A stretch of 64,000 bases of DNA, taken from Tubulanus polymorphus (Eukaryota > Nemertea > Palaeonemertea > Tubulaniformes > Tubulanidae). Shown here one piece after another: positions 15,501 to 55,000 of this stretch; position 1 is the stretch's first letter, and each line of letters opens with the position of its first letter. The stretch spans positions 12,815,951 to 12,879,950 of the forward strand of contig NC_134035.1 in the NCBI RefSeq assembly GCF_964204645.1, written 5' to 3'. A program made the position numbers and the translations under genes. Below the pieces are notes generated by a model. It saw only the letters and a program-made list of their open reading frames with translations. It searched no databases and was not told the DNA's origin.

Positions 15501-18500
15501 CGAACAGCTTTACATTCGAAATCTGATGAATACCGAATCCATTTGATGAAAGAACGAATCAAATTCGCCGTAAAATATCTGAAATCAACGTCGCATGGCA
15601 GCGATTCGAACCAAAACTCGGCCATGTTCCTGCCTCGGTGAGAATTCAAACCTGATGGCTTCGTGAGACTCTGCCACGTTCCTGCCTCATAGGGATTCAA
15701 ACCTGATAGCTTCGTGAGACTCTGCCACGTTCCTGCCTCATAGGGATTCAAACCTGATGGCTTCGTGAGACTCTGCCACGTTCCTGCCTCATAGGGATTC
15801 AAACCTGATGGCTTCGTGAGACTCTGCCACGTTCCTGCCTCATAGGGATTCAAACCTGATGGCTTCGTGAGACTCTGCCACGTTCCTGCCTCATAGGGAT
15901 TCAAACCTGATAGCTTCGTGAGACTCTGCCACATAACTACCTCGGTATAAGGCAGAATTGATTGAAACATTTATTGAAATTTTATTTATTGAATTTAAGA
16001 AATTAAGAAAATAAACAAAACTAGATGACATCTAAAAATAGGTTACTATTACGAGCGTACTATGAGTTCAATAAATCACATATCATCAACGATAACACCA
16101 TATACACTCGCGAGGGTGTCTCCCCCTCACGAGGGTGTGTCTCCCCCTCGCGAGGGTGTGTCTCCCCCTGCAGATCTATCATTCACTATCATCGATCACT
16201 CAACCAGAAATAAATCAAAGGTATACGTCAGAAAAAATCATTGATTCCATCGGTATAAATGCAACCATACAATAAATCGAATAGAAAAGTGTTATAAACA
16301 TAAAACTTCGGAGGCCAAAGAGAGGTAGCCAGAATAGAGAGGTAAGCGCTCAGGGAGGTTAAAACTCCAATCAAGGGATTGAGAGGAAAGCCCGTATAGA
16401 GTAAACCCTCAGGGAGGTAATGCCATAGGTAAGCCCTCATAGGTAATTAGAGGTTAGCTCACAACGGAGGTATAAAGCCCTCAGGGAGGTAAGTAAGCTC
16501 TCTCCGAGAGCAGTCGGTAAGCTGGTATTAAATTGATAGATTCAGTTGATCAGTAACAGCAGTGCAGTCAGATTGAAAAGAGATTATACCCTATAGTTTG
16601 AGTACACCGCACCAGACTGACTGTAACCATCTCGCATACCGGTGTATATACGGTATACCCTATAGTTTGAGTACACCGCACCAGACTGACTGTAACCATC
16701 TCGCATACCGGTGTATATACGGTATAACCTATAGTTTGAGTACACCGCACCAGACTGACTGTAACCATCTCGCATACCGGTGTATATACGGTATACCCTA
16801 TAGTTTTGAGTACATCGCACCAGACTGACTGTAACCATCTCGCATACCGGTGTATATGCGGTATAACCTATAGTTCGAATACACCGCACCAGACTGACTG
16901 TAACCATCTCGCATACCGGTGTATATACGGTATAACCTATAGTTTGAATACACCGCACCAGACTGACTGTAACCATCTCGCATACCGGTGTATATACGGT
17001 ATAACCTATAGTTTTGAGTACATCGCACCAGACTGACTGTAACCATCTTGCATACCGGTGTATATACGGTATACCCTATAGTTTGAGTACACCGCACCAG
17101 ACTGACTGTAACCATCTCGCATACCGGTGTATATACGGTATAACCTATAGTTCGAATACACCGCACCAGACTGACTGTAACCATCTCGCATACCGGTGTA
17201 TATACGGTATAACCTATAGTTTGAGTACACCGCACCAGACTGACTGTAACCATCTCGCATACCGGTGTATATACGGTATACCCTATAGTTTTGAGTACAT
17301 CGCACCAGACTGACTGTAACCATCTCGCATACCGGTGTATATACGGTATACCCTATAGTTTGAGTACACCGCACCAGACTGACTGTAACCATCTCGCATA
17401 CCGGTGTATATACGGTATAACCTATAGTTCGAATACACCGCACCAGACTGACTGTAACCATCTCGCATACCGGTGTATATACGGTATACCCTATAGTTTG
17501 AGTACACCGCACCAGACTGACTGTAACCATCTCACATACCGGTGTATATACGGTATACCCTATAGTTTGAGTACACCGCACCAGACTGACTGTAACCATC
17601 TCGCATACCGGTGTATATACGGTATAACCTATAGTTTGAGTACACCGCACCAGACTGACTGTAACCATCTCACATACCGGTGTATATACGGTATAACCTA
17701 TAGTTTGAGTACACCGCACCAGACTGACTGTAACCATCTCGCATACCGGTGTATATACGGTATAGCCTATAGTTCGAATACACCGCACCAGACTGACTGT
17801 AACCATCTCGCATACCGGTGTATATACGGTATAACCTATAGTTCCAGTACACCGCACCAGACTGACTGTAACCATCTCGCATACCAGTGTATATACGGTA
17901 TAACCTATAGTTTGAGTACACCGCACCAGACTGACTGTAACCATCTCGCATACCGGTGTATATACGGTATAGCCTATAGTTTGAGTACATCGCACCAGAC
18001 TAACTGATTGTATCCATCTCGCATACACAATCGGAAAATCAATCACTTATAATACATCGATACATATAGATTAATATAGACTGATCACCTGAAGGAATCA
18101 CAGCAAAAAATACCTGAAAATATCATTTTCCTCTAGAAAGCCGTCTGAATTAGATTCCATTATCAATAATATGGTTTGAGGAGTTTCTCACTGTAACTAA
18201 GAACCGGGGCCCTTCCCTCATTTATTCTGATGTACTAATGGATGATTTTTTAGCCGAGAAATTGATGCTTGTTTTGGAAAAAAGGCTCGTCTCGTCCTTC
18301 GAACAACCTCTGCAAGTTTTTATGAAAATCAGAACTATATGGACTGAAATAGCAAGAAATTTGAGACCCATCATTCGATTAGACTGTTTCCAACCGGTCC
18401 TAAGAGAATTAGGAGTGGTTCATTTCGAACCCAGTCTTCAGATTGAAAGAAAACCTTCGAATCCAACGCAACAAATCTTCAGCTCAACGATGAACAGTGA

Positions 18501-25312: not shown

Positions 25313-25671
25313 AGTTACAAAAAAAGTTGTAAACTCTGCCTTACTTGTCAACAGTCAACTGAGTAAAAACCGCTCTCAAGTCAGAGAATTTTACTGAAAG
25401 ATTGTTTTTGAAGAGGCTATTTTTACCCCAGTGGATCCAGTTCCGCAGTTCTAAGTTGATTGAGAGGAAACTGATCGAGAATGAGTTAACTCACGACTGT
25501 GGACAGAACTGGTTCCTGATTCTCTGATTCCGTGAAATAGTCCAACGTTACTGAATAAGACAAGAGTCCACCGTATTTGATAAATAAATATACAGAGGTA
25601 AAATGAATTCATGTTCTTACATACACATCTCATATACACTAAAGATGACTAGTTTTACATTTAGAGTGAAG

Positions 25672-28600
25672 TCAACTCGATTGAACTTTCTTCTTCAAAT
25701 TCTCAGCGAGTTTATCCATAAATTCATTCGTCAATAGATAATCACTTCTTTGGACCCTGAAATTGATCATGAATAGAAGATGAGATTACAGTGAGATAGA
25801 TTGGTTATCATTGCGGTGCTTACAGATCAGGGAATCCATAATTCCTGATACTTCCCCGACCCTTGAACAAAAATTCCCTGATTAAATTGTAAGATATTCT
25901 CAGTGAGGGCTGTTTGTTATCAAGAGGTTCCTTGTGCCACTCATCACCAGCAAGAACAAGACACCTAAAGTTCAAATTCCCTGATTGAATTATAAGATAT
26001 CCTAAATGAGGCTGTTTCTTATCAAGAGGTTCCTTGTGTCACTCGTCACCAGCAAGAACAACAACACAACAAAAATTCAAATTCACTGATTTTTCCCTGA
26101 TTTACATTAATAAGAATCAGAATTCCCTAATAATTCCAGCAGAGAAAAATAAATCCGGAATTCGGTGATCTGTAAAAACCGTGTATCATGTTTTTCATTG
26201 TAGAACTTACTTCGCCATTCCTTTGATGCAAATAGCTAAATCTTTCGTCATGAAACCGGCTTCGATTGTTTCCACGCAAACCTTTTCTAGATTTCGAGCG
26301 AATTCAGCGAGTTTTTCGTTTGCGTCGAGTTTCGCTCGGTGTTCGAGACCTCGAGTCCACGCGAATATAGACGCTATTAAATAAATACAAAAAAATACAG
26401 ATGAGGATGGGCGAGGACAGGGTGGCGCCACTTTAATGTGACAAGCTTTTTTCCCTAACTATTCCCTGACATGCACATAGTTTTCCCTGACTTGATCTGC
26501 TAAGAATCCAATCAATTAACGCAGTAAAATATGTCAGAAACTGTCTAGCAATCTCAACATCAATTTCCCTGACTTTTAGCATTTTTTTTACAAAATTCCC
26601 TGAGTATTTCCCGACTTCTTACAGAAAAGTAAATAATCGCCCAACTTTTCCCTGATTTTCAGGTAAGTGGCCACCTTGTCTAATCAAAGAAATAACCCAC
26701 AGTTAGAAAGTGTTAAGTTTTGACTTATTTCCATGAACCATTTCAAAAACTGTTTATTATCAAATATACGCTTTGATATTGTGGGTTTTTCTAAAATTGA
26801 ATTAGACTTGTCTATAGAAACCAAGATCTAAATCGAGCACACATGTTCACAGAAGACTACGTACCTATAGGATTAGTAGATGTATCTCCACCTTTCTGAT
26901 GAACTCTATAATGACGCGTGACAGTACCGTGAGCTGCCTCCGCTTCTACTGTCTTACCATCGGGACAAATCAGTACGCTGGTCATCATTCCTAGAGATCC
27001 ATAACCTATCAAATACAACCAAATTCTATCATTCGTCAGACTGACAACGTATTAACCCTTTCAGTGCCGACTTATTAATACCCTATAGTGCTGGAGAAAA
27101 TTTGAAAATTAAAAAAAATTCCACCCTAGTGTGTTGAACAATGGAAATACCACTATAGTGCGTCTACACCGTGGTGCGGTGTATCGTTAGTTACTAGTAT
27201 TTCACTATGTGTGACACTTGCTGCCATTTTTCAATAGAGATAATTACAAATTAGTAATTACATCAATACACCGCAGTGCGGTGTACTAGCAAAATCCATT
27301 ACCGATTTATACACCGCATTGCGATGTAGATGCACTGAAAGGGTTAATGTACCGGTTCTGGTATCCCCTTTCTCTCAGATCTACAGTGGCAGTATCCTTG
27401 TTTCCAGATCTACAGTTTAGAGTCTCTTAGAATTATCAGCAGTTCTTCTACCAATTTCAAAATACTCGTATTGTTTTATCGTACTAGAAACCAAGAATTA
27501 GCAAGGGTTTCAATTGGTCTCTATCAATATCGGAATTCTTTTCTGGTGCGTTTGTTTTCAGCCAGAATACGCTCTTCTACCTATTGCGGAATACTTAAAA
27601 AGCGGCCGGTTGAGAATTTCGGAATTCTCTTCTGGCGCTTTTCGGAATACTTGAGAAGCAGCCGAGTTAGTAATCGAGAATTGCCATTCCTAAACCGGAA
27701 TAAGTTCAATCAAAAGCTGTTTTCCCAAAAATCGTCAGCACCATTATGCCACAAATAGACTGTATTTTCATGACTGCATTGACATTGATCTCGTGATAAT
27801 TAATTATTACCTTGAGCGATACAATCGGATTGTACGTCTCCGTCGTAATTCTTACACGCCCAAACGAATCCACCCTCGGCTTTCATCGCGTACGCCACCA
27901 TATCGTCGATCAATCGGTGCTCGTACCAGATATTCTTAGCTTCGAACTTCGATTTATATTCCCTGAAAAAGTATCAGAATTGAAGAGGAACCTGTTCATA
28001 CAGAGGGCGCTGCCACTTCCGTCTATTTACAAATCTTTTGGGCAGGGTTTCATAGAGGTGGAAGAAAGATAGTCCCTGGGAACATTTTGAAATTTGTCAG
28101 TTATAAACATGGTTTCTCATCATTACTATGGTGGTTGTCACCCAGATTGAGGATTTACCCCCAGGGATAACTTTGATACTCAGTCTATCAAACCGGGCCC
28201 TGAAGTTTTGCACGTGATTACACATAATTCCCTGTGAATGAGTAATTTCTAGGTTTACAATTCATTCATTTTTCGTTGAATCACGTATTAATAAAGAAAC
28301 ACACGGTCAATAAATAGCATCATCCGAATTGAGTTTTCCAAGTTTTTGGTCAATGGCCATATTTTGCTCGATAAATCGACTTCTAGACAATGGAATTCAA
28401 TTCACATTCCATCGCAATCTTTCTTAGATTTGTGTTCAAAACAGGGCCGAGTATCGATTTAAGATAAACTGAATTAATGAAGACATTAAATCGATTTAGG
28501 AGTTAAACCTTTTTGCGAAACTGGGCCCCAGCCCTAAGTGATGTTTAGATTTGAGAGCATCTAAATTTAGAGAACTCTTCTGGGTCATTTTTTCTAATAT

Positions 28601-31493
28601 ACGACACTAAATGATATTTACTTCTCGTAAATTTCCTGGAAAATGTCCTTGAATCGGCCGTCGTATTTTTTCAGGATTGTATTCTTCGTGCTCAGATAAA
28701 GCGGCCATTGTTTATCCAACGCGTACGTGAACGAACTGTGAGCGAAATCGGTGATCGACTGAAATAGAACAAGCAGGAATTATCGGACAGTTTACGGTAG
28801 CGGTCAACGATGATCTATTTTTCAGAGTAGTTACCTTATCGGTGTTGTACATCGCCATGGCGATACCGGCGCCGTCGAAATCGAATACCGTATGATGAAT
28901 CTGTTCCCCTCCGTCTTTCGGGGTCCATTTTATTTCTAATTTTCCAGCTCCGGGCACCAGAAAATCAGTGGCTCGATACTGAAACCAGCAAGACAAATGA
29001 ATTAATATTACAACGGCTTACAGATCCATGACTGGTAGACTGATGGTCATCTCAATATTCAGAGTTAGATAAGTAAAACCCAAAGTTGATGATTCAACAA
29101 TTTATTTTCGAAGTTTTGACTGAAAACTTTAAAGAAATGAAACTTGGTTTTTGTCTCTCTGAAGATGAAGTGCAGTCCAAACTTCACGTAGAGAACCTGA
29201 TAAGAGTTAAAATCAGTTCATTTTCAATGTTTCAAACATTAAGAAGTGAAACTTTAGCCAAGAATAATAGAACTAGTTTGATCTTTCTATATCTTATTCC
29301 TAAAAAGGAAACCGATAGTTAAAATCAGTTCATTTTCAATGTTTCAATAAAGAGTCAAACTTCAGCCGAGAACTAAATAACTAGTTTGATCAATCTGTTT
29401 CGATACGAACCTGATCTCCGAATGCGTGTCTGCCGATGACGATACTCTTCTTCCAGCCGGGGACGAGACGTGGAATGTTCTCGCAGATGATCGCTTCGCG
29501 GAACACGGTTCCACCGAGGATGTTACGGATTGTTCCATTCGGCGATTTCCACATCTTTTTCAAACCGAATTCTGAATAAAACGAATCCGCAAATGGAAAT
29601 GAAATTTTGTTCTCGGTTTCTCTATACAAATATCCTTTGATTATAAAATGGAGTGGTTTTTATCGAGAAAGACAGGTTTCTCTATTGATGATGATGTGTT
29701 TGTACTGGTTCTCATAGACAAGAGACTGTCTCACTGAATTGAGGAACAACCCTCGAGTTAAAACTAAGTGAAACTTTACGAGGACTTTGACATTTCAACT
29801 TAAATACTATGAGCCATTTCCAAAATGAATTCATTATCTTATTGTGGATTTCTAAGTATATTCATCTTTTGTGATCCGTACACAGTATAATAAATCGCGT
29901 TAGAACAATTTCATATTCAAGATATGCATTGTTTCAAGGGAAGGGAAAGGCACAATTACAATGATCATGGAAACCATAATAAGCACAGAAATAACTGTCA
30001 AATACTTGAAATTGTCCGAGACAGACTATCACATGACCTAAGAGCCGTCCTCGTTCAATGTATCGGTACTTATCAAAACTGTGAAATGTTAATAAAATCA
30101 AGGACGCAATTTAGTGATACAAGGTCAATTAAGAGTATGAATCAATAATCAGTTCATATCGTAGCCTAGTTCCACAGTTCAAAGCAAAGTCCAAAATATG
30201 AACCGGTTAAATTCTCCTCAAAATAGGTGAGAATTGGAGAGAATTGGAGAACAACCCCTGAAGAATTTATATTCCAATCATATTGCTGAACATTGAACAA
30301 ACCACTGAGAGTAATACTGTTTAAACTCAATTCTATGAGCTATTTTGAAAACAGTCTTGAAAATGGCTCATAAAATTAAATTGAAGCATCGGTACTCTCA
30401 TTGTTTTTTTTTTGACATGGTTTATGCCTTTCAAACTTATTCTCTGAGATATTGTGGATGACTGAAATCAGGGAATGAATGAATTTACCTTCAACTCTTT
30501 TCTCGTCGGGTGTTATTGTAGCACATTTGATACCGACATTGTATTTCTTGATAGCATTAGCGCAATCAATTGTAACTGAAAACCAGAATAGAATTGAATA
30601 GAAATCATTAAAACATCGTTTGGTGTGCAGGGTTCGAACCAGTTTTAATAAAGAATTCAAGCTTAGCATTTCAAAGGGTTAAATTCAAATTATCATTGAT
30701 TTTAAAACTGAAGGAAAAACTTTAGGTTTAAACGATTTTAAGTTAAACCGTGGTTTCAGTTTTATAGAAACGTTGAACTCCTGAATGGATTAAAGATAAA
30801 CTGAACTGAATTAATGAAGAAATTGAATTGATTTTAAAGAGTTCAAGTAAAACATTACCCACGGCTAATACAAATATGAATTCTGTTAACAGAATTATTG
30901 CAATTTGTGATTAATTCAATGAAGATTTTTCTGCAATCCTTCAATAGTGTAAAATGGATTTAAGCCAACCTTTTGAGACCTCTGAGGAATTTACAACTAA
31001 AACTGACTGAGCTAGGCCAGGCCCGACGTCCCGTCAAGCAAAGTTTAAATAGACAATACAGGTACTTAAAGCAAGTAGGATTACGACATAATATTGAATA
31101 AGTCATTAACAGAGAAAGTGGAGCAGGCCCGAACAGGCCAGTATTGCAGTTAGTACATACTCTGATCATCTGTAGCATCACGGCTTTGAATACTGAGATC
31201 AAATTCATGAATATTCAAATCTACGAATGGAAAAATCAACTTCTCTTTGATCTCTTCCCAAATCACTCTGAAAACATGAAAACATTTGAGAATAATATAT
31301 TTAATTGAATTTGACATGAACCAGGAAGTATTTTGACAGTAGCTCTTACCGGGTCATTTCATCTCCCTTTATCTCGACAACATCTCCTCCTGAAATTATC
31401 AAACACTTTTATTCCTCTTCTAAATATATATGTGAACATGTTGTGAAAGAATCCTCACTTTAAAACCCATTATTTACCTGAGATTTTAGACAT
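25672..31493 (-). CDS. IDH1: NADP-dependent isocitrate dehydrogenase, cytosolic type (complete, 11 exons)
   Basis: It catalyses oxidative decarboxylation of isocitrate to 2-oxoglutarate, making NADPH. Coding exons: 31478-31493, 31350-31389, 31161-31267, 30489-30575, 29411-29571, 28835-28978, 28622-28758, 27811-27962, 26865-27005, 26211-26373, 25672-25756. All have GT-AG borders and matching phases, totalling 410 aa (human IDH1 is 414). The start is [19 protein letters not shown]. The substrate-binding signature [17 protein letters not shown] is present, as is the catalytic/hotspot Arg in IGRHAFGDQ (residue 131, equal to human R132). The metal-binding segment [10 protein letters not shown] and the NADP loop [11 protein letters not shown] are also intact. 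There is no N-terminal transit peptide. The C-terminus ends KKKVQSS, without the AKL peroxisomal tripeptide of human IDH1. Possible polyadenylation signals on the minus strand are at 24947-24952 and 23928-23933. Confidence 0.96.
25819..26180. mobile_element. TIR element with internal tandem repeats, family E
   Basis: The left end GCTTACAGATCAGGGAATCC is inverse to the right end GGAATTCGGTGATCTGTAAAAACC. Inside are two ~100-bp repeats carrying TATCAAGAGGTTCCTTGTGCC and CACCAGCAAGAACAA. It lies in the last IDH1 intron, about 60 bp from exon 11. A second copy with three internal repeats is at 52681-53113, and a decayed inverted one at 58970-59275. Confidence 0.75.
27056..27343. mobile_element. 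piggyBac-like MITE (TTAA target site), copy 1
   Basis: The TIRs are CCCTTTCAGTGC and GCACTGAAAGGG, flanked on both sides by TTAA (27052-27055 and 27344-27347). The interior carries subterminal palindromic words such as ACACCGTGGTGCGGTGTA and ACACCGCAGTGCGGTGTA. There is no ORF. It lies in IDH1 intron 8. TTAA duplication with a CCC start is the hallmark of piggyBac-mobilised elements. Confidence 0.88.
28443..28529. mobile_element. Short palindromic element, family C
   Basis: It has inverted ends GGGCCGAGTATCGATTTAAG and AAACCTTTTTGCGAAACTGGGCCC around a short AATTAATGAAG centre. About 87 bp, in an IDH1 intron. Related copies are at 57701-57830 and, without clear ends, 30720-30850. Confidence 0.6.
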
Positions 31494-33062
31494 TTTGACA
31501 GCACGAATTATGACGGACGCCTGACAACTTCACCGGACCGGATTTTAGTGGGCAGAAACAACGGGGAACATTCGCGTGCCAGAGCAGGTTACAATACGGA
31601 ACACTCGCATACCGCAGCAGGAATATTGATCTGTAAGAAATATCAACCGTCAAGTGCTGCCCCTATATATAACGTAAACGGTAAATATGAGAACTAACTT
31701 ATTACCCGCGTGCCAGTTGCAAACATTTAGCCTATCGCCAAGCAGCACTTGACGCCGGATTCAAGAATAGTTGATGAAAGCTTGGAAAAATGATAACTCC
31801 AAGATGAAGGAATGTACCAAATGTAATCTGCAAGATATTGGCGACGATGCTAGTTGAGTGTAGCGCCTGATCAGACATGATCGCATTGAGTGAAATTCGA
31901 TCTCTCTCCAAAACTTTTATCTGAACAATGTGGGAATAAATGCAGTGATTAGCGGCAGCAGGTATTATGTAAACATTTAACTTGTTTTGACCGATTTCTC
32001 GTGATATTCGTCTAATAATAATAATTATAATAATAATGCTTATCTTTATTTTTCAAAGAATGGCAGTTTCAAAGATTCGAATCCCTGTAGCGACAACCGA
32101 TGATCAGTCTACCCCCGGCGGCCCCCCCCCCCCCTTCCCCGAATTCAATCGGAAAACCACCACTTCGTTTTTGAAAGCATGCGCCAGATGCCATAATTTT
32201 TTTCTCGTAATTTAGAAAAAAATTAAATACTTTGATTTTTGAATGGCACTTTGACTGCCTTCCAGAAGGCATGGAAGGCAACCTGGATCGGCACCTGACT
32301 GCGTACTGTCATTGAACGCGGAGCTTTGCGGACGAATGATAGATTTGAACAAAGAAGTTTCCACAGTTTCTAGGCGCCATTTTGTGGCGGTCCCTCGAGG
32401 TCCCCATTGTTGCGATAATTTGCGCTCATTTTTAAAACATAAGTTTAGATTGAATATCAAATAGCTCTGCAGTCCCTTGCTTGATTAACTTAATCAATAC
32501 ACTATTTTAAAGGAAATGAAATGCAGATATTTGCTGGCGATTCTTGGAATTTTTGAACGCAACAATTGAGAACAGTGACGATGTGAAACCAAGGACCGCA
32601 TAACCGCGCGTAAAAGAAATCGCAATATTTATTAATTTTAAAACATCTAAGTATCTCTTAAAGCTATATTTCCTATTTTCACAGAGGTTAAAGAGGGTTA
32701 TTTGCAGTTATCAGAATACTGTCTGGTTTTGTGAACATAATTATTTGTTTCTATACGGTCGACTACATTAGAGCTGTAATGTAATAGGAGAAATGATTCA
32801 ACCATATATCAAACATCTATTCAATAATCTATGCGTACATTATACAATTTAATCAAGATTTAATTAGCACAGATTCTGGTTTTATCCACGAAGCTTCTGG
32901 CGCATAAAATGATTATACAAGGCCAGGCCATAGACGTAAAATATATGTTCATCTCGAGCGCAAACAGGACATCGAGCAGTACTAGGAATTGGATGGACTC
33001 TAAATCGTCCAAACAGACATAAAAGGAAATCCGACAAAGGGGGAAAAGAATAGACGCCGGTG
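31494..33062. other. IDH1 5' flank; no other gene recognised
   Basis: IDH1 is transcribed leftward from about 31.6 kb. A C-rich run (GGCGGCCCCCCCCCCCCTTCC type) lies near 32118-32137. GGATCGGCACC near 32285 resembles the end of the hAT-like element at 38339. No coding exon is supported. Confidence 0.5.
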
Positions 33063-34520
33063 ATGATGATGAAAGCACTTCCGGAATGGTTACGCGAGGA
33101 ATTACGTTTCTTTTTCGTGACGTCATGGCCGATTGTAGTTGTTCCCGTAATAACCGAATTGCCTTTTTTAACGTGTACTATAATGGTTGCTCAAACCAAT
33201 ATGATTTCGCAAGCCAGCTTTTCATTGATAATCACGTTTCTAAAACTCATCTACTCGTTTGGTATGGGTATGGCGATGGGTATAGAAGGATTATTCTCGC
33301 AAGCTTTCGGCGCCAAAAACTATCGTTATTTGCGCTTGTTGCTACAGAGAGGGTTGTTGATACTGATTTGTAGCGGTTTATTGTTGATGCCACTAAATTT
33401 CACTGCCGACAAAATATTTATACTTTTCGGACAAAACGCATTGGTTGCCGAAGAGGCTGAAATGATGCTGATGATGTTGTCACCCGATAACATTTTTGTG
33501 CTCGCGAATGATATTTTCACGCGTTTTCTAATGTCCCAGCATATAGTTATACCGGTGGTTATTTCAACAATCCTCAACAACGTTGTCACCGCAGTAATCT
33601 GTTACATCACAGTTATCGTACTACGTTTGGCCAATCTAGGGGTGGCCATCTCTTTCCTTGTATTTTTTGGCCTCAATGCAGTTTGCGTGGGTGTTGGATC
33701 TTCTCTGGTTAATAAAGATATTATGGCTATATACAGAACTAATACGGACATATTTAAGAATTTATGGGAGGTCGCTAGTATGGTTCTCGGGTCAACAGCA
33801 TCAACAGTGTGTTTCACCATAGCAATAACAATCGGTACATTTTTGACCGGTACTTTTGGAGTGGTTGAACTTGTAACATTGAGCGTCTCGTTGCAAGTAA
33901 TATATTTTAACCTCAATATATTTTGGGGAATATCGGAAGCGTGTAGTATAAGAGTCGGTTTCCTGTTATCATCCAGGGACGGTCACGCGGCCAAAAGAGC
34001 TTTGTTCTTTTATCAAGGTGTTTCGATGATGGTCGCTGTAGTTCTCGGTGTATTAATTTGTTCGCTTCACGTTGTTTTAGCTCGGGGATTTGCTAGCGAT
34101 AGTTTGGTCGAAGCCAAACTGAAATTTATGTTTCTGTACATAGGAGCAACTTTGCCCTTATTGGCTGTGGATGTGATATTTAATGCTGCAATTCGGGGAT
34201 GTGCTAAAATTGCTATTTTTACAATAACCACTTTCGTCACTTTAACAATAGGAACATCTTTAGGTTTGATTCTATTATATTTTGCTCGGTTAGGTGCTAT
34301 GAGTGTGATAATAGGATTCCAGAGTTCATGTGTTTTAAAATCTTTGATATCAGTTCCATACGCCATATTTGTTTTAGATTGGGATGAACAATCTAAACTA
34401 GCGCGTCAAAGAACTACAGACGATCTGAAGTTAATCCAAAACGGAACCGGAAATAGCGAATTGGATTACAATACGTTTGATTTAATAACAAGCCCCACCC
34501 TGAGGCGAGCTTCATCATAG
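33063..34520 (+). CDS. MATE-type (SLC47-like) multi-pass transporter, intronless and divergent
   Basis: MATE proteins export organic cations by proton or sodium antiport. The 485-aa frame (first ATG 33063; two further ATGs follow at once) has about 12 hydrophobic segments, the usual MATE number. Family landmarks are GLFSQAFGAKNYRYLRLLLQRG (the SQxxGA-N-----LQR motif after TM2) and CSIRVGFLLSSRDGHAAKRA (the xRVGnALGAG-----AKRA motif after TM8). NAAIRGCAK near residue 380 fits the family's RG(C/S)G motif. By hand alignment the TM7 glutamates of human MATE1 (E273, E278) and the TM10 glutamate (E389) are replaced by non-acidic residues, so transport may be altered. The gene lacks introns, unlike its neighbours, suggesting a retrocopy or an intron-poor expansion. 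It lies 0.5 kb upstream of, and in the same orientation as, a GPCR gene. Confidence 0.8.
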   Translation: MMMKALPEWLREELRFFFVTSWPIVVVPVITELPFLTCTIMVAQTNMISQASFSLIITFLKLIYSFGMGMAMGIEGLFSQAFGAKNYRYLRLLLQRGLLILICSGLLLMPLNFTADKIFILFGQNALVAEEAEMMLMMLSPDNIFVLANDIFTRFLMSQHIVIPVVISTILNNVVTAVICYITVIVLRLANLGVAISFLVFFGLNAVCVGVGSSLVNKDIMAIYRTNTDIFKNLWEVASMVLGSTASTVCFTIAITIGTFLTGTFGVVELVTLSVSLQVIYFNLNIFWGISEACSIRVGFLLSSRDGHAAKRALFFYQGVSMMVAVVLGVLICSLHVVLARGFASDSLVEAKLKFMFLYIGATLPLLAVDVIFNAAIRGCAKIAIFTITTFVTLTIGTSLGLILLYFARLGAMSVIIGFQSSCVLKSLISVPYAIFVLDWDEQSKLARQRTTDDLKLIQNGTGNSELDYNTFDLITSPTLRRASS

Positions 34521-35056
34521 AAAATAGTTCAGAAACAAAAAAATAGAAAATGATTTCAACTAAAAATATATAAGTATAATAGGTTTATTCATTTTCTCTC
34601 TCTTCAGAGTCATTCACGTCGTATGTCGTTGTGACACGATATATAACTAGTTCACCTGGGAATGAGTTTCTATAATCATAAATAACTATAATTATTATCT
34701 CGCAAATTGAATTATGAAAACCTATCATAATAATAAGATTATTAGCACCCGGTATCTGTGTTAAATCCACGTAAAATTAATTCACGAGGTGACAGTCAGC
34801 TCAAACTAAAACTGTATGACACGATTTGTCAATTCTATATTGCGAATAGCTTTACATAATCTCTAACGAAGGATACATGAATGACTATCATAGATTTAAT
34901 GCGGCTTAATGAATAACGGTGTGGATTTCTATCACGTAAAATTGATTCTTCAGAAAGAAGACGGTCACGATCATTGGCGAATTTAAAATAAAAATCTGAG
35001 CACCGTGTTAGATATTAGATTTAGATTCAATTTGCGAATATTTGAAAACAAAATCT
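34521..35056. other. Intergenic spacer between the MATE and GPCR genes
   Basis: AT-rich spacer without a recognisable TATA box, RNA gene or repeat family. It must hold the MATE 3' end and the GPCR promoter. Confidence 0.5.
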
Positions 35057-36073
35057 ATGTTTGCATTTAGCAAATTGAATACTTCAAATTTTCTTACTGC
35101 TGTAACTCCTAACGCGCTTGAGTGGAATATGAATTCTACTAAGATAATGCTTGTCGGTGGTCGACCTTTCAGCTACATCGTTCTTATGTCCGTGGAGAAC
35201 AAGTCTGGAATCTACCGTACCATATCACTGGTCATTCTGCCTATCTTATTCCTGTTAGGAGCCTTCGGAAATTCGGCTACTTTCCTGATAATGATAAGTC
35301 GCAGATTCCGCGGTTTATCTTACGCTAACTATCTAATCGTTTTGTCTATCAGTGATTTTATATTCTGTATCGGTTTTGCGCTGATGCCTATTTTACAGTT
35401 TGTCTTACTGTACGTAGAAACTCGTCCAATATTCTTGCTGAATTCACTGATCAGTTGTCAAATCTACGAATTTTTGATAGATTCTATCGGTGCCAATAGT
35501 GCGTGGTTAATAGTAGCGATATCTCTAGAACGTGCGGCAGTTGTTCTCTTCCCGTTCACATCTCGTTTGATATGTACACCGAGATTCGCTCGATGCGCCA
35601 TTCTATTTATTTTCGTGATGAACGCACTGGTAATTGGTATTAACCCATCAATAGTAGGCCTAATGAATTTTTTGGATAATTTTAGGTGTTACTACAAATT
35701 TTCTGATCAATTCCTACTTTTTATGCAACATGTAATATACGTTTTTCTTCTGCCTTTAACTTTCATTGTAACGTCAAATTGTGTAATAATAATTCAGTTA
35801 TTCAGAGGTTCAAAAATGGTTTCCTCCGATCAGAAAACTACAAAATCAAAACGTACAACAATAATGCTTGTAACAGTTTCACTCGCATTTGCAATATTTA
35901 CACTTCCAACCACTATTGTTGTATTTTTACCAATCTCAAATTTTCTTTTAGATATTTCCGCTCAGTTCCAATTGTGTAATTATGTTGTTAATTTTTACAT
36001 ATATCTTTTATTGGGACGAGAAATTCGTGAATATTTCTGTATGAAAATCCGCTGTAGAATTTCAGTCAAATAA
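35057..36073 (+). CDS. Rhodopsin-like (class A) G-protein-coupled receptor, intronless
   Basis: It is a 338-aa seven-helix receptor; the ligand is unknown. The first ATG is 35057; the in-frame ATG of MNSTK at 35129 is an alternative start with an N-glycosylation site just inside. TM1 contains GNSATFLI (N1.50). TM2 contains LSISDF (D2.50). The conserved TM3 cysteine is in SCQIYEF, and the DRY box reads ERA. The second extracellular loop cysteine is in FRCYYKF. TM6 reads FAIFTLP in place of FxxCWxP. The NPxxY motif reads NFYIY, followed by a helix-8-like LLLGREIREYF. It is probably a peptide-type receptor from a lineage-specific invertebrate expansion, but subfamily is not resolvable. Confidence 0.82.
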   Translation: MFAFSKLNTSNFLTAVTPNALEWNMNSTKIMLVGGRPFSYIVLMSVENKSGIYRTISLVILPILFLLGAFGNSATFLIMISRRFRGLSYANYLIVLSISDFIFCIGFALMPILQFVLLYVETRPIFLLNSLISCQIYEFLIDSIGANSAWLIVAISLERAAVVLFPFTSRLICTPRFARCAILFIFVMNALVIGINPSIVGLMNFLDNFRCYYKFSDQFLLFMQHVIYVFLLPLTFIVTSNCVIIIQLFRGSKMVSSDQKTTKSKRTTIMLVTVSLAFAIFTLPTTIVVFLPISNFLLDISAQFQLCNYVVNFYIYLLLGREIREYFCMKIRCRISVK

Positions 36074-52000: not shown

Positions 52001-55000
52001 AAAGTGCGACTATCGACGTAGACGTTGTTGACGTTTTGAATCGCTTTTAACGCGTCTTCAGCTTTTAAATACGTAACATACGCACCGGCGCTAGGACCCT
52101 GAGATAGAGACACAGTCATTATATACATCATCCGCTGTATGAGCATTCAGATTAACTTCAGATATCATCACAGTTCCCACAGTTATATGAATTAAAAATT
52201 CCCAAGTTTTTCTCAAAGAGATTATTCAATTTTCCCAAATGGCAATGAACAGATACCATTGTACTACAGTCAGCATTTAAGCCGAGATTGGTTGATAAAG
52301 GTGATTTTCAAGGGAAATCACTGAAGAAAGATTCTCTTGGCAAATGCAATACATGAAACAAACATGAATCCCAAATATTTCCCTGATTTGAGGAACATTT
52401 TTCAAATTCCCAAATATTTCCAAACCGGGAATTATTATTTAAAAATTCTCGAAGTTTATTCCAATTTCTCCATTCTGTGGGAACCATAATTATAGCGATT
52501 ATATGATTTCTGAATCTAACGTTTCTTGATTCTATTTATCCAGTATTTATCTAGAGGTCAGGTTTACTTAGGCATTCTATGTAAAGTACGTATGATGTCT
52601 AATCCATATTCCTCATAAACCAGATTAATTTCTTTAATCTTATACGATCCGAATAAAGCTGATTGAGTATTTCTACGATAGGGGTTTTTACAGATCAGGG
52701 ATTCCGAAATTCCATATTTTCCAAATGCTGATAAGATTTAACACATATCTTCAGTGGGAGCTGGTACTTATCAAGAGGTTCCTTGTGTCACTCGTCACCA
52801 GCAAGAACAACAAGACACCAAAACATTCGATATCCCAGATTATATGATAACATATCCTCAGTAGGGGCTGTTTCTTATCAAGAGGTTCCTTGAGCCACTC
52901 GTCACCAGCAAGAACAACAAGACACCAAAACATTCGACATCCCAGATTATATGATAACATATCCTCAGTAGGGGCTGTTTCTTATCAAGAGGATCTTTGT
53001 GTTGCTCGTCACCAACAAGACACCAAAAATTCTCTAGAATTTCAACAAGTCGGAATTTCCAGATTTTCCACGCGAGGAAAATAAATCCGAAATTCTCCGA
53101 TCCGTAAAAACCCGTGTAACGAATGAAATGAATGATAATAATTTACTTACATTGTTTTTACTTACATTAGACTGTGAACCGGCGTACGTTGTACTTTGAT
53201 TGATCACTACTTTATGAATTTTACCGAATTTTCCGAAATATTCGTGTCGTTTGAGAACTTCGGGATCGGCGAGTCGAGGCGATAAACCGACTACGAATAC
53301 CAAGTTCTTCTGAACGACTCTGAATTAGATTCAAATGAAACGTACGTGAATAATTGACATCGCAGAACGAACGCGACGTTGTAAAATGAATTTCACTCAG
53401 TTTAAGTCACACAAAATCGATTGGAACGACATCTCTTGGAACGTATCTCTTGGAACGACATCTCTTGGAACGTATCTCTCCCGTGACAGAATTCCGTTCA
53501 GTTGGTCTGAGGTAAAACGGATAAACATAATTTTCTTCAACTCACCGAACATTTGCCAAATGTTTTCTATTTTCGGCCGCTTTCTGTTTACGTTGATGAT
53601 CTTTCTGACGTCTTTCCTTCTTTATTCTTTGTAACCTACGTAAATCAACGTTCGAAATCGTGAGTTTATTTCCACCGAATAACTCACACACTCCGTCGTC
53701 GTCGTTTGCTTTGACAAGATTTAACAAATTCAGTACGAGAAACCTCGTAAAATCACTTCATAAGGTCACGTTATATTCAACAAAAAATCTTACAAAACCC
53801 GATTTCGAAAGTTTGATCAGATTATCAGAACTCTTAGGACCTTTTCGATCGCGCTCTTTCGTGAGAGGAATTATCTATTACTATTTCTGTTAAAATTGCC
53901 GTGTAGGAAAGTTTCTGCAAATGATTGCATCTTTGGTGATGACAGAAATTTTTTTACAAGAAGAATATTCCTTCTACAGGAAGAGCACAAATAAAAAGAA
54001 CCTTATAAATACTTTAAAGAAGTTCCAATCTCAAATTACACTTTGAAAGTTGCAGGTTTAGATATAAATAACTTTGAAAAAAAAAATAATTTCTAGCTAA
54101 AAATGCTCCTCCTTTTTTTAAAACATTTCTATCCACTTACTCATCATCTGTCAGGGGTTTAAATTCTGCTGGATTTTCCGGGTAGAGCTAGAAAAAATAT
54201 TCATAAAATCAGGTATTTTGTTTACCTGATAACAATTCCACGTGTACGTAAAGCTAACCTGCTAAGCATTGCACTTACCTTTCGACAAGCTGGACAAAGA
54301 CCATTTTCATATGTTCGAAGTCTGTGCCAACAAAACCGACAAATCTGAAAACGAAATTCAAACATATTCAGACTCATGATTACCATTTCACAGTTTTCGA
54401 GTTTTCCACGCAGTTTTTAAGGAGAAAATCTTAAATTTTGAGGAAGTCTCGGCATCACTTTCATATATCCCAATTACAGACTCCTCCGATCAAGGCATAG
54501 TCAGTACAGCAACATAAATTTCTAATTGCCTATTTCGTAAAAATAGAATTTCTGGCATTTTGCTCGAATTGAAGTTTCAAATTCCTTTAAAAGCATATTC
54601 CGTGTAGAAGGGGGCTTCTATTTAAGAAATCAAGCAGTCGTATTGACCCTGAGCGATGAAGCAAACAGTTCTCAGTGAAAATTTGACTCTTAAGGTTTAA
54701 GCGCTGGAAATATACTAATTCTGATCCACAACTATGGAACAACTGTGTGTCGTTCTCCTGAAACGTACCTGATAGCCACATGTGCATGGATAAAAACTCA
54801 GATCATCCATCTCTAACGGCTCCATACACAATGGGCACTGTAAAAATAAATAATAATACGCAACATTGATTGAGTTAGACATAATTCAAATAACAGGCAA
54901 GTTGAATTAAGATGTCTCACGATAGAATAAAATTTTTTATGATCAAATTTATTCGACGAAAAAAAATTATATTGTTGGACTTAAACAGTTCACGTGGCAC

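Follow-up and report, generated by a model that had tools for sequence, protein, structure and literature searches.

The gene for cytosolic NADP-dependent isocitrate dehydrogenase (IDH1) of the nemertean Tubulanus polymorphus ends in a stop codon of the leaky type, UGA CU, and ten codons further on the same reading frame ends in Ser-His-Leu, a tripeptide of the peroxisomal targeting signal PTS1. The arrangement is best explained by a working but inefficient readthrough PTS1, through which a small share of IDH1 would reach peroxisomes; judging from the sequence, we regard this explanation as likely. The elements lie as follows in the window, by which we mean the whole 64,000-nucleotide stretch of DNA that was analysed:

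25672..25674, minus strand: first stop codon TGA, the proposed leaky stop (minus-strand translation)
25669..25671, minus strand: CTT right after the TGA, UGA CU core without the stimulating A at +6 (sequence)
25642..25671, minus strand: in-frame 10-codon extension LHSKCKTSHL (minus-strand translation)
25642..25650, minus strand: putative cryptic PTS1 Ser-His-Leu, C-terminus of the extension (translation; tripeptide also found in human DAO, see below)
25639..25641, minus strand: second stop codon TAG (minus-strand translation)

Translation of the minus strand over 25639-25830 reproduced what an earlier note on this DNA had described, namely an IDH1 end VQSS followed by TGA C, the tail LHSKCKTSHL and TAG at 25639-25641; the range 25639-25680 given there, which names no strand, belongs to the minus strand and runs from the final two sense codons through TGA and extension to the TAG. 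The codons past the TGA are CTT CAC TCT AAA TGT AAA ACT AGT CAT CTT. As the note had stated, Ser-His-Leu fits the PTS1 pattern [SAC][KRH][LM] and has basic residues nearby: lysines at -5 and -7 of the extension. The stop is UGA followed by CU (TGA CTT, 25674-25669), the core shared by readthrough PTS1 genes of the UGA CU type. Behind this UGA, T stands at +6 and C at +7 in place of the A and G of the strong form UGA CUA G, two bases that enhance readthrough but are not part of what defines the type.

IDH1 lies on the minus strand from 31493 to 25672. A splice model rebuilt from the sequence joins 11 exons into a protein of 410 aa with 0 internal stops:

31478..31493, minus strand: exon 1, start MSKIS, cytosolic-type N-terminus (in-frame ATG, GT donor, spliced CDS open)
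31350..31389, minus strand: exon 2 (AG/GT splice sites, frame kept)
31161..31267, minus strand: exon 3 (spliced CDS model)
30489..30575, minus strand: exon 4 (spliced CDS model)
29411..29571, minus strand: exon 5 (spliced CDS model)
28835..28978, minus strand: exon 6 (spliced CDS model)
28622..28758, minus strand: exon 7 (spliced CDS model)
27811..27962, minus strand: exon 8 (spliced CDS model)
26865..27005, minus strand: exon 9 (spliced CDS model)
26211..26373, minus strand: exon 10 (spliced CDS model)
25672..25756, minus strand: exon 11, coding part, ended by TGA (translation; alignable to cytoplasmic IDH1 chains, residue 386 onward)

Residues 3-408 matched TIGR00127 (eukaryotic NADP-IDH) with an E value of 5e-228. 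In the PDB the last 178 residues matched cytoplasmic IDH1 best (E about 1e-95), followed by 6ajc (2e-88) and then by the mitochondrial enzyme (4e-83). By these matches the gene is a eukaryotic NADP-dependent isocitrate dehydrogenase of the cytosolic type. Its N-terminus MSKISGGDVV, which resembles that of cytosolic IDH, gives a model without a mitochondrial presequence. The C-terminus before the TGA reads KKKVQSS: the spliced model stops at VQSS, in agreement with the earlier observation that the regular end lacks AKL. Within this model (other first exons are conceivable) the unextended protein, MSKIS...VQSS, has neither a PTS1 nor a mitochondrial presequence. When the TGA was read as Trp, the last exon matched the 26 cytoplasmic IDH1 PDB chains listed, from residue 386, where residue numbers vary with the tags of the chains. 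These chains end in AKL: a human IDH1 end with this tripeptide was matched over its full length (386-414 of 414 in 1t09).

Human D-amino acid oxidase, DAO, has Ser-His-Leu as its PTS1 (PMC6770196). In passages of the same source the apparent affinity, in units as printed, is 1.859 for the SHL of DAO, 2.544 for the AKL of HSD17B4 and 8.015 for the SKL of ACOX2; the DAO value is near that of HSD17B4, and of the two tripeptides SHL and SKL the former is the weaker. In yeast, a PYC1 3′UTR tail ending in SHL led to peroxisomal targeting and function once it was placed in frame, but not in its native frame, and a predictor rated this tail weak (PMC4526572).

The main rival of a readthrough PTS1 is chance: the SHL end could be a 3′UTR coincidence with no selected function, IDH1 being cytosolic only and peroxisomal NADPH coming from elsewhere. 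We regard this as rather unlikely. Chance was modelled with an order-2 Markov chain and 400,000 simulated tails per training set: tails ending [SAC][KRH][LM] made up 0.25% after training on the IDH1 introns plus 3 kb downstream and 0.26% after training on the whole window, and CT followed TGA in 3.8% and 5.4%, respectively. TGA, CT and a PTS1 tail should thus coincide in about 1 in 10,000 cases per gene, a product of the simulated rates that assumes independence, and IDH1 is among the few genes with a prior reason for a hidden PTS1, given the regular PTS1 of the mammalian enzyme and the prediction for the fly (see below). When the actual non-coding TGAs in the window were counted, 4 of 2,967 had a tail with the PTS1 pattern; with C as the next base the figure was 1 of 440, and with CT it was 0 of 168. 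These TGAs are not independent, since many sit in tandem repeats. Chance gains some weight from a yeast survey that reported PTS1-like motifs in ~1% of genes, of which only few recurred in another species, with a wider motif definition, a start within 30 bp of the stop and all frames counted (PMC4526572). It also gains from the stop context of IDH1, which differs from the strong UGA CUA G, and from the lack of RNA structure past the stop, both described in the following.

UGA CU is the core of leaky stops in Ustilago and in HeLa cells, where an A in third place helps (PMC4207609). We scored contexts by LINfs3 and LINiter with the weights of Table 2 in PMC4359377. With LINfs3, TGA CTT ranks 8 of 192 stop-plus-triplet contexts; with LINiter, the 15-base context of IDH1 reaches the 91st percentile among random TGA contexts and scores 0.368, versus 0.608 for LDHB, 0.816 for MDH1, 0.426 for EDEM3 and 0.276 for PRDM10. 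Measured readthrough is 2.91% for human MDH1 in HeLa cells and 1.55% for LDHB, both with UGA CUA G, and 0.13%, 0.27% and 0.66% for the human UGA CUU contexts of PRDM10, DHX38 and EDEM3, respectively (PMC4359377). Of these three, PRDM10 is the closest, having CUU C in common with IDH1 of the window. If human rules hold, these UGA CUU values point to a basal IDH1 readthrough of tenths of a percent. The score is a rough guide: contexts that score nearly as IDH1 were measured at 0.31% (ZNF574) and 0.26% (LENG1), two LDHB mutants with LINiter scores above that of IDH1 reached just 0.17% and 0.20%, and the authors themselves give a correlation of 0.34 between score and readthrough (PMC4359377). A stimulating RNA structure was not found in the first 132 nt past the IDH1 stop (z = +0.86); equal or better folds came from 162 of 200 shuffled sequences. 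Weak context and absent downstream folding are the main evidence against an efficient readthrough device. It has been argued that ~1% readthrough suffices, as peroxisomes make up 1-2% of the cell volume (PMC4207609).

A search of the genome (267.8 Mb in 77 contigs) with the IDH1 protein matched 15 exons. Of these, 9 belong to the window gene (contig C11) and 6 to a second locus, an IDH2-like paralogue (contig C8). The paralogue ends EKSLHK TAA with the in-frame tail FSPLDGATVHHPSI, and no PTS1 was found at its regular end or in this tail; both NADP-IDH genes found are therefore without a regular PTS1. A separate paralogue with a standard PTS1, which would have spoken against the proposal of the earlier note, did not appear, the sole other NADP-IDH gene found being the one that ends EKSLHK. 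Cytosolic MDH1 of the same genome was taken as positive control. Its end on contig C1, AMSFVQ TGA CGG GCT AAC AGT CGT CTG TAG, holds a hidden in-frame PTS1, RANSRL, and the best PDB matches of this gene are cytoplasmic MDH:

L011 1672-1767, G000:C1 about 9573266-9573361: MDH1 hidden PTS1 end (sequence, translation)

Readthrough PTS1 of MDH1 is reported from Hydra to mammals (PMC4207609). Type II readthrough has two usual contexts, CUA and CGG behind the UGA, often with a stem-loop (PMC11166343); the human UGA CGG context of THG1L yields only 0.15% (PMC4359377). Eight other metabolic genes, picked by function and not at random, served as further controls (MDH2, IDH2, three NAD-IDH subunits, GPD1, 6PGD and GAPDH, named from family match and reading of the sequences), and a PTS1 tail was present in 0 of the 8. 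The positive MDH1 control beside these negative genes argues against chance. With stops TGA in 2, TAA in 5 and TAG in 1, and TGA C in 0 of 8, the controls test the tail and not the context. A fifth Ldh_1_C match (C6, L014), to which no gene end could be assigned, was excluded from the counts. For inorganic pyrophosphatase, a further control, no PF00719 match was obtained in the genome, in a search that may miss short exons, and the MATE and GPCR genes of the window are likewise without a PTS1 tail. A Pex14_N domain (PF04695) at C1:27941869-27942003, E 5e-9, indicates that a PEX14 gene is present, which we took as the mark of peroxisomal matrix import. The C-terminal part of the MDH2-like gene (L010/L023, G000:C1:27362845-27363336) is one intronless open frame of 243 aa, whereas cytosolic MDH1 has several exons; the gene may be a retrocopy or may have lost its introns.

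An earlier case concerns this very enzyme and kind of stop: NADP-IDH of D. melanogaster (Idh) stops at UGA CU, and a PTS1 was predicted for its readthrough extension; in mammals and fungi the orthologues end in a regular PTS1 (Stiebler 2014, PMC4207609). Fly Idh thus resembles IDH1 of the window in enzyme, UGA CU stop and PTS1 predicted in an in-frame extension, although the fly case is a prediction, section 5 of that paper holding no experiment on the fly gene. The novelty that the earlier note had implied is reduced accordingly, and with the fly prediction dating from 2014 the IDH1 case is a further example of a known trick. In the main text of a Drosophila ribosome profiling study (PMC3840789) the words 'isocitrate' and 'Idh' are absent, and PTS1 were predicted there solely for extensions of at least 12 aa, so that this text speaks neither for nor against the fly prediction. 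Judged by titles, the beginnings of abstracts or selected passages, the papers listed in literature searches held no experimental test of IDH readthrough in an animal. A pattern search of viral contigs for close relatives gave 9 matches and 0 relatives.

Other known systems share single traits with the proposed device. Human and animal MDH1x is likewise a cytosolic dehydrogenase to which UGA readthrough adds a PTS1, but the contexts differ, being UGA CUA G in human MDH1, UGA CUU C in IDH1 of the window and UGA CGG in MDH1 of the same genome. Human LDHB-x has a similarly short extension (7 aa) that ends in a PTS1 past a UGA CU stop; it is a different enzyme, linked to NADH and not NADPH, and has the stronger context CUA G. 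The CUU C context of IDH1 is weaker than the CUA G of LDHB and MDH1, which the earlier note had cited as precedents; human CUU contexts give 0.13-0.66%. In yeast IDP2/IDP3 a cytosolic NADP-IDH with a cryptic 3′UTR PTS1 gives rise to a peroxisomal form, in IDP2 via a +1 frameshift (PMC4526572), whereas the PTS1 of IDH1 would be reached by in-frame readthrough. Mammalian IDH1 is the same enzyme, alignable to the window protein and ending in the PTS1 AKL; there the signal stands in the regular frame, while here a stop occupies about this place and the PTS1 lies beyond it.

The leaky stop itself might be the fossil of an old regular PTS1, an origin that we consider improbable on the present alignments. 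In the longest PDB alignment (6o2y, 386-414; last exon with TGA as Trp, weak in this part) S-TGA-L lies opposite A-K-L, and the alignment reaches the Leu in 1 of the 26 chains listed. A residue of the set [SAC] precedes 21 of the 170 TGA CT in the window, IDH1 included. The ancestral end would have been S-R-L or A-R-L, and one base change would have turned Arg CGA or AGA into TGA. With Leu CUN as the next codon, the new TGA would at once have stood in the leaky UGA CU context; the old stop behind the Leu would later have been lost and a new PTS1 (SHL) have arisen downstream. If so, this would be a general route from constitutive PTS1 enzymes to readthrough PTS1 enzymes.

The same alignment, which places the TGA opposite Lys and the Leu after it opposite the last residue of AKL, could also mean that the true codon is a sense codon, the TGA being due to a mistake in assembly or sequencing or to a rare allele, and that the extended protein is the sole product. 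This is highly improbable: the IDH1 frame continues past the end of the aligned IDH1 chain, the contigs are long (the 77 noted above), and fly Idh has the same stop context (PMC4207609). Least probable of all is a peroxisomal IDH1 made by alternative splicing, as for the C-terminal PTS1 of fly Nurf-38 (PMC4207609), or by frameshifting, as where +1 in pre-duplication yeast IDP2 exposes a PTS1 (PMC4526572), the readthrough frame being irrelevant: under a simple pyrimidine rule a PTS1 end resulted from 0 of 92 acceptor-like sites past the exon 10 donor (~6 kb) and from 0 of 137 donor-acceptor pairs with the donor inside exon 11 (acceptors at most 2.5 kb away), and the shifted frames end in I, TSL and MCM, none a PTS1, so that the IDP2 route is inapplicable here. 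The reading of the arrangement as a readthrough PTS1, put forward in the earlier note, is thus partly supported: it is favoured by the low chance rate, the hidden PTS1 of MDH1, the PTS1-less paralogue and the absence of a PTS1 by splicing or frameshift in these scans, and is weakened by the stop context.

With a readthrough PTS1, one IDH1 mRNA would give two proteins. The majority of ribosomes would halt at the UGA and release cytosolic NADP-isocitrate dehydrogenase; a minor fraction, for which we infer some tenths of a percent to ~1%, would read past this UGA CU stop with a near-cognate tRNA for Trp, Arg or Cys, adding X-LHSKCKTSHL. PEX5 would then bind the C-terminal Ser-His-Leu, with the two upstream lysines close by, and IDH1 would be imported into peroxisomes. 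IDH1 is a dimer, and unextended subunits may ride along in it. Piggyback import of the kind known for LDHA with extended LDHB (PMC4973966) could thus occur. Inside the peroxisome the enzyme would convert isocitrate to 2-oxoglutarate and NADPH, the latter serving for example dienoyl-CoA reduction. Readthrough, PEX5 binding, import and this peroxisomal role are steps that we infer from the sequence.

If this holds, another animal is added to the fly prediction of IDH1 reaching peroxisomes by readthrough, and if the devices of both IDH1 and MDH1 work, peroxisomal NADPH and NADH shuttling would depend on leaky stops. As UGA CUU and UGA CGG both differ from the optimum in humans, the need for the CUA codon in invertebrate PTS1 readthrough would become testable. 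Lists of peroxisomal enzymes drawn from annotated C-termini would miss such readthrough isoforms.

Several features surround the gene. An intronless frame for a MATE-family transporter (PF01554; window 33054-34517, plus strand) lies head to head with IDH1, and an intronless frame for a rhodopsin-type GPCR (PF00001) is found at window 35012-36070, plus strand. Window 16585-18006 is a 69-bp tandem array of ~20 copies with 96% match; it has long open frames on both strands, which are probably not genes. A repeat of ~102-107 bp (GGCTGTTTCTTATCAAGAGGTTCCTTGTG...) occupies 25871-26091 in the last intron of IDH1 and recurs at window 52743-53020; by eye, the IDH2-like paralogue, too, has it in its last intron (L003 about 1990-2300).
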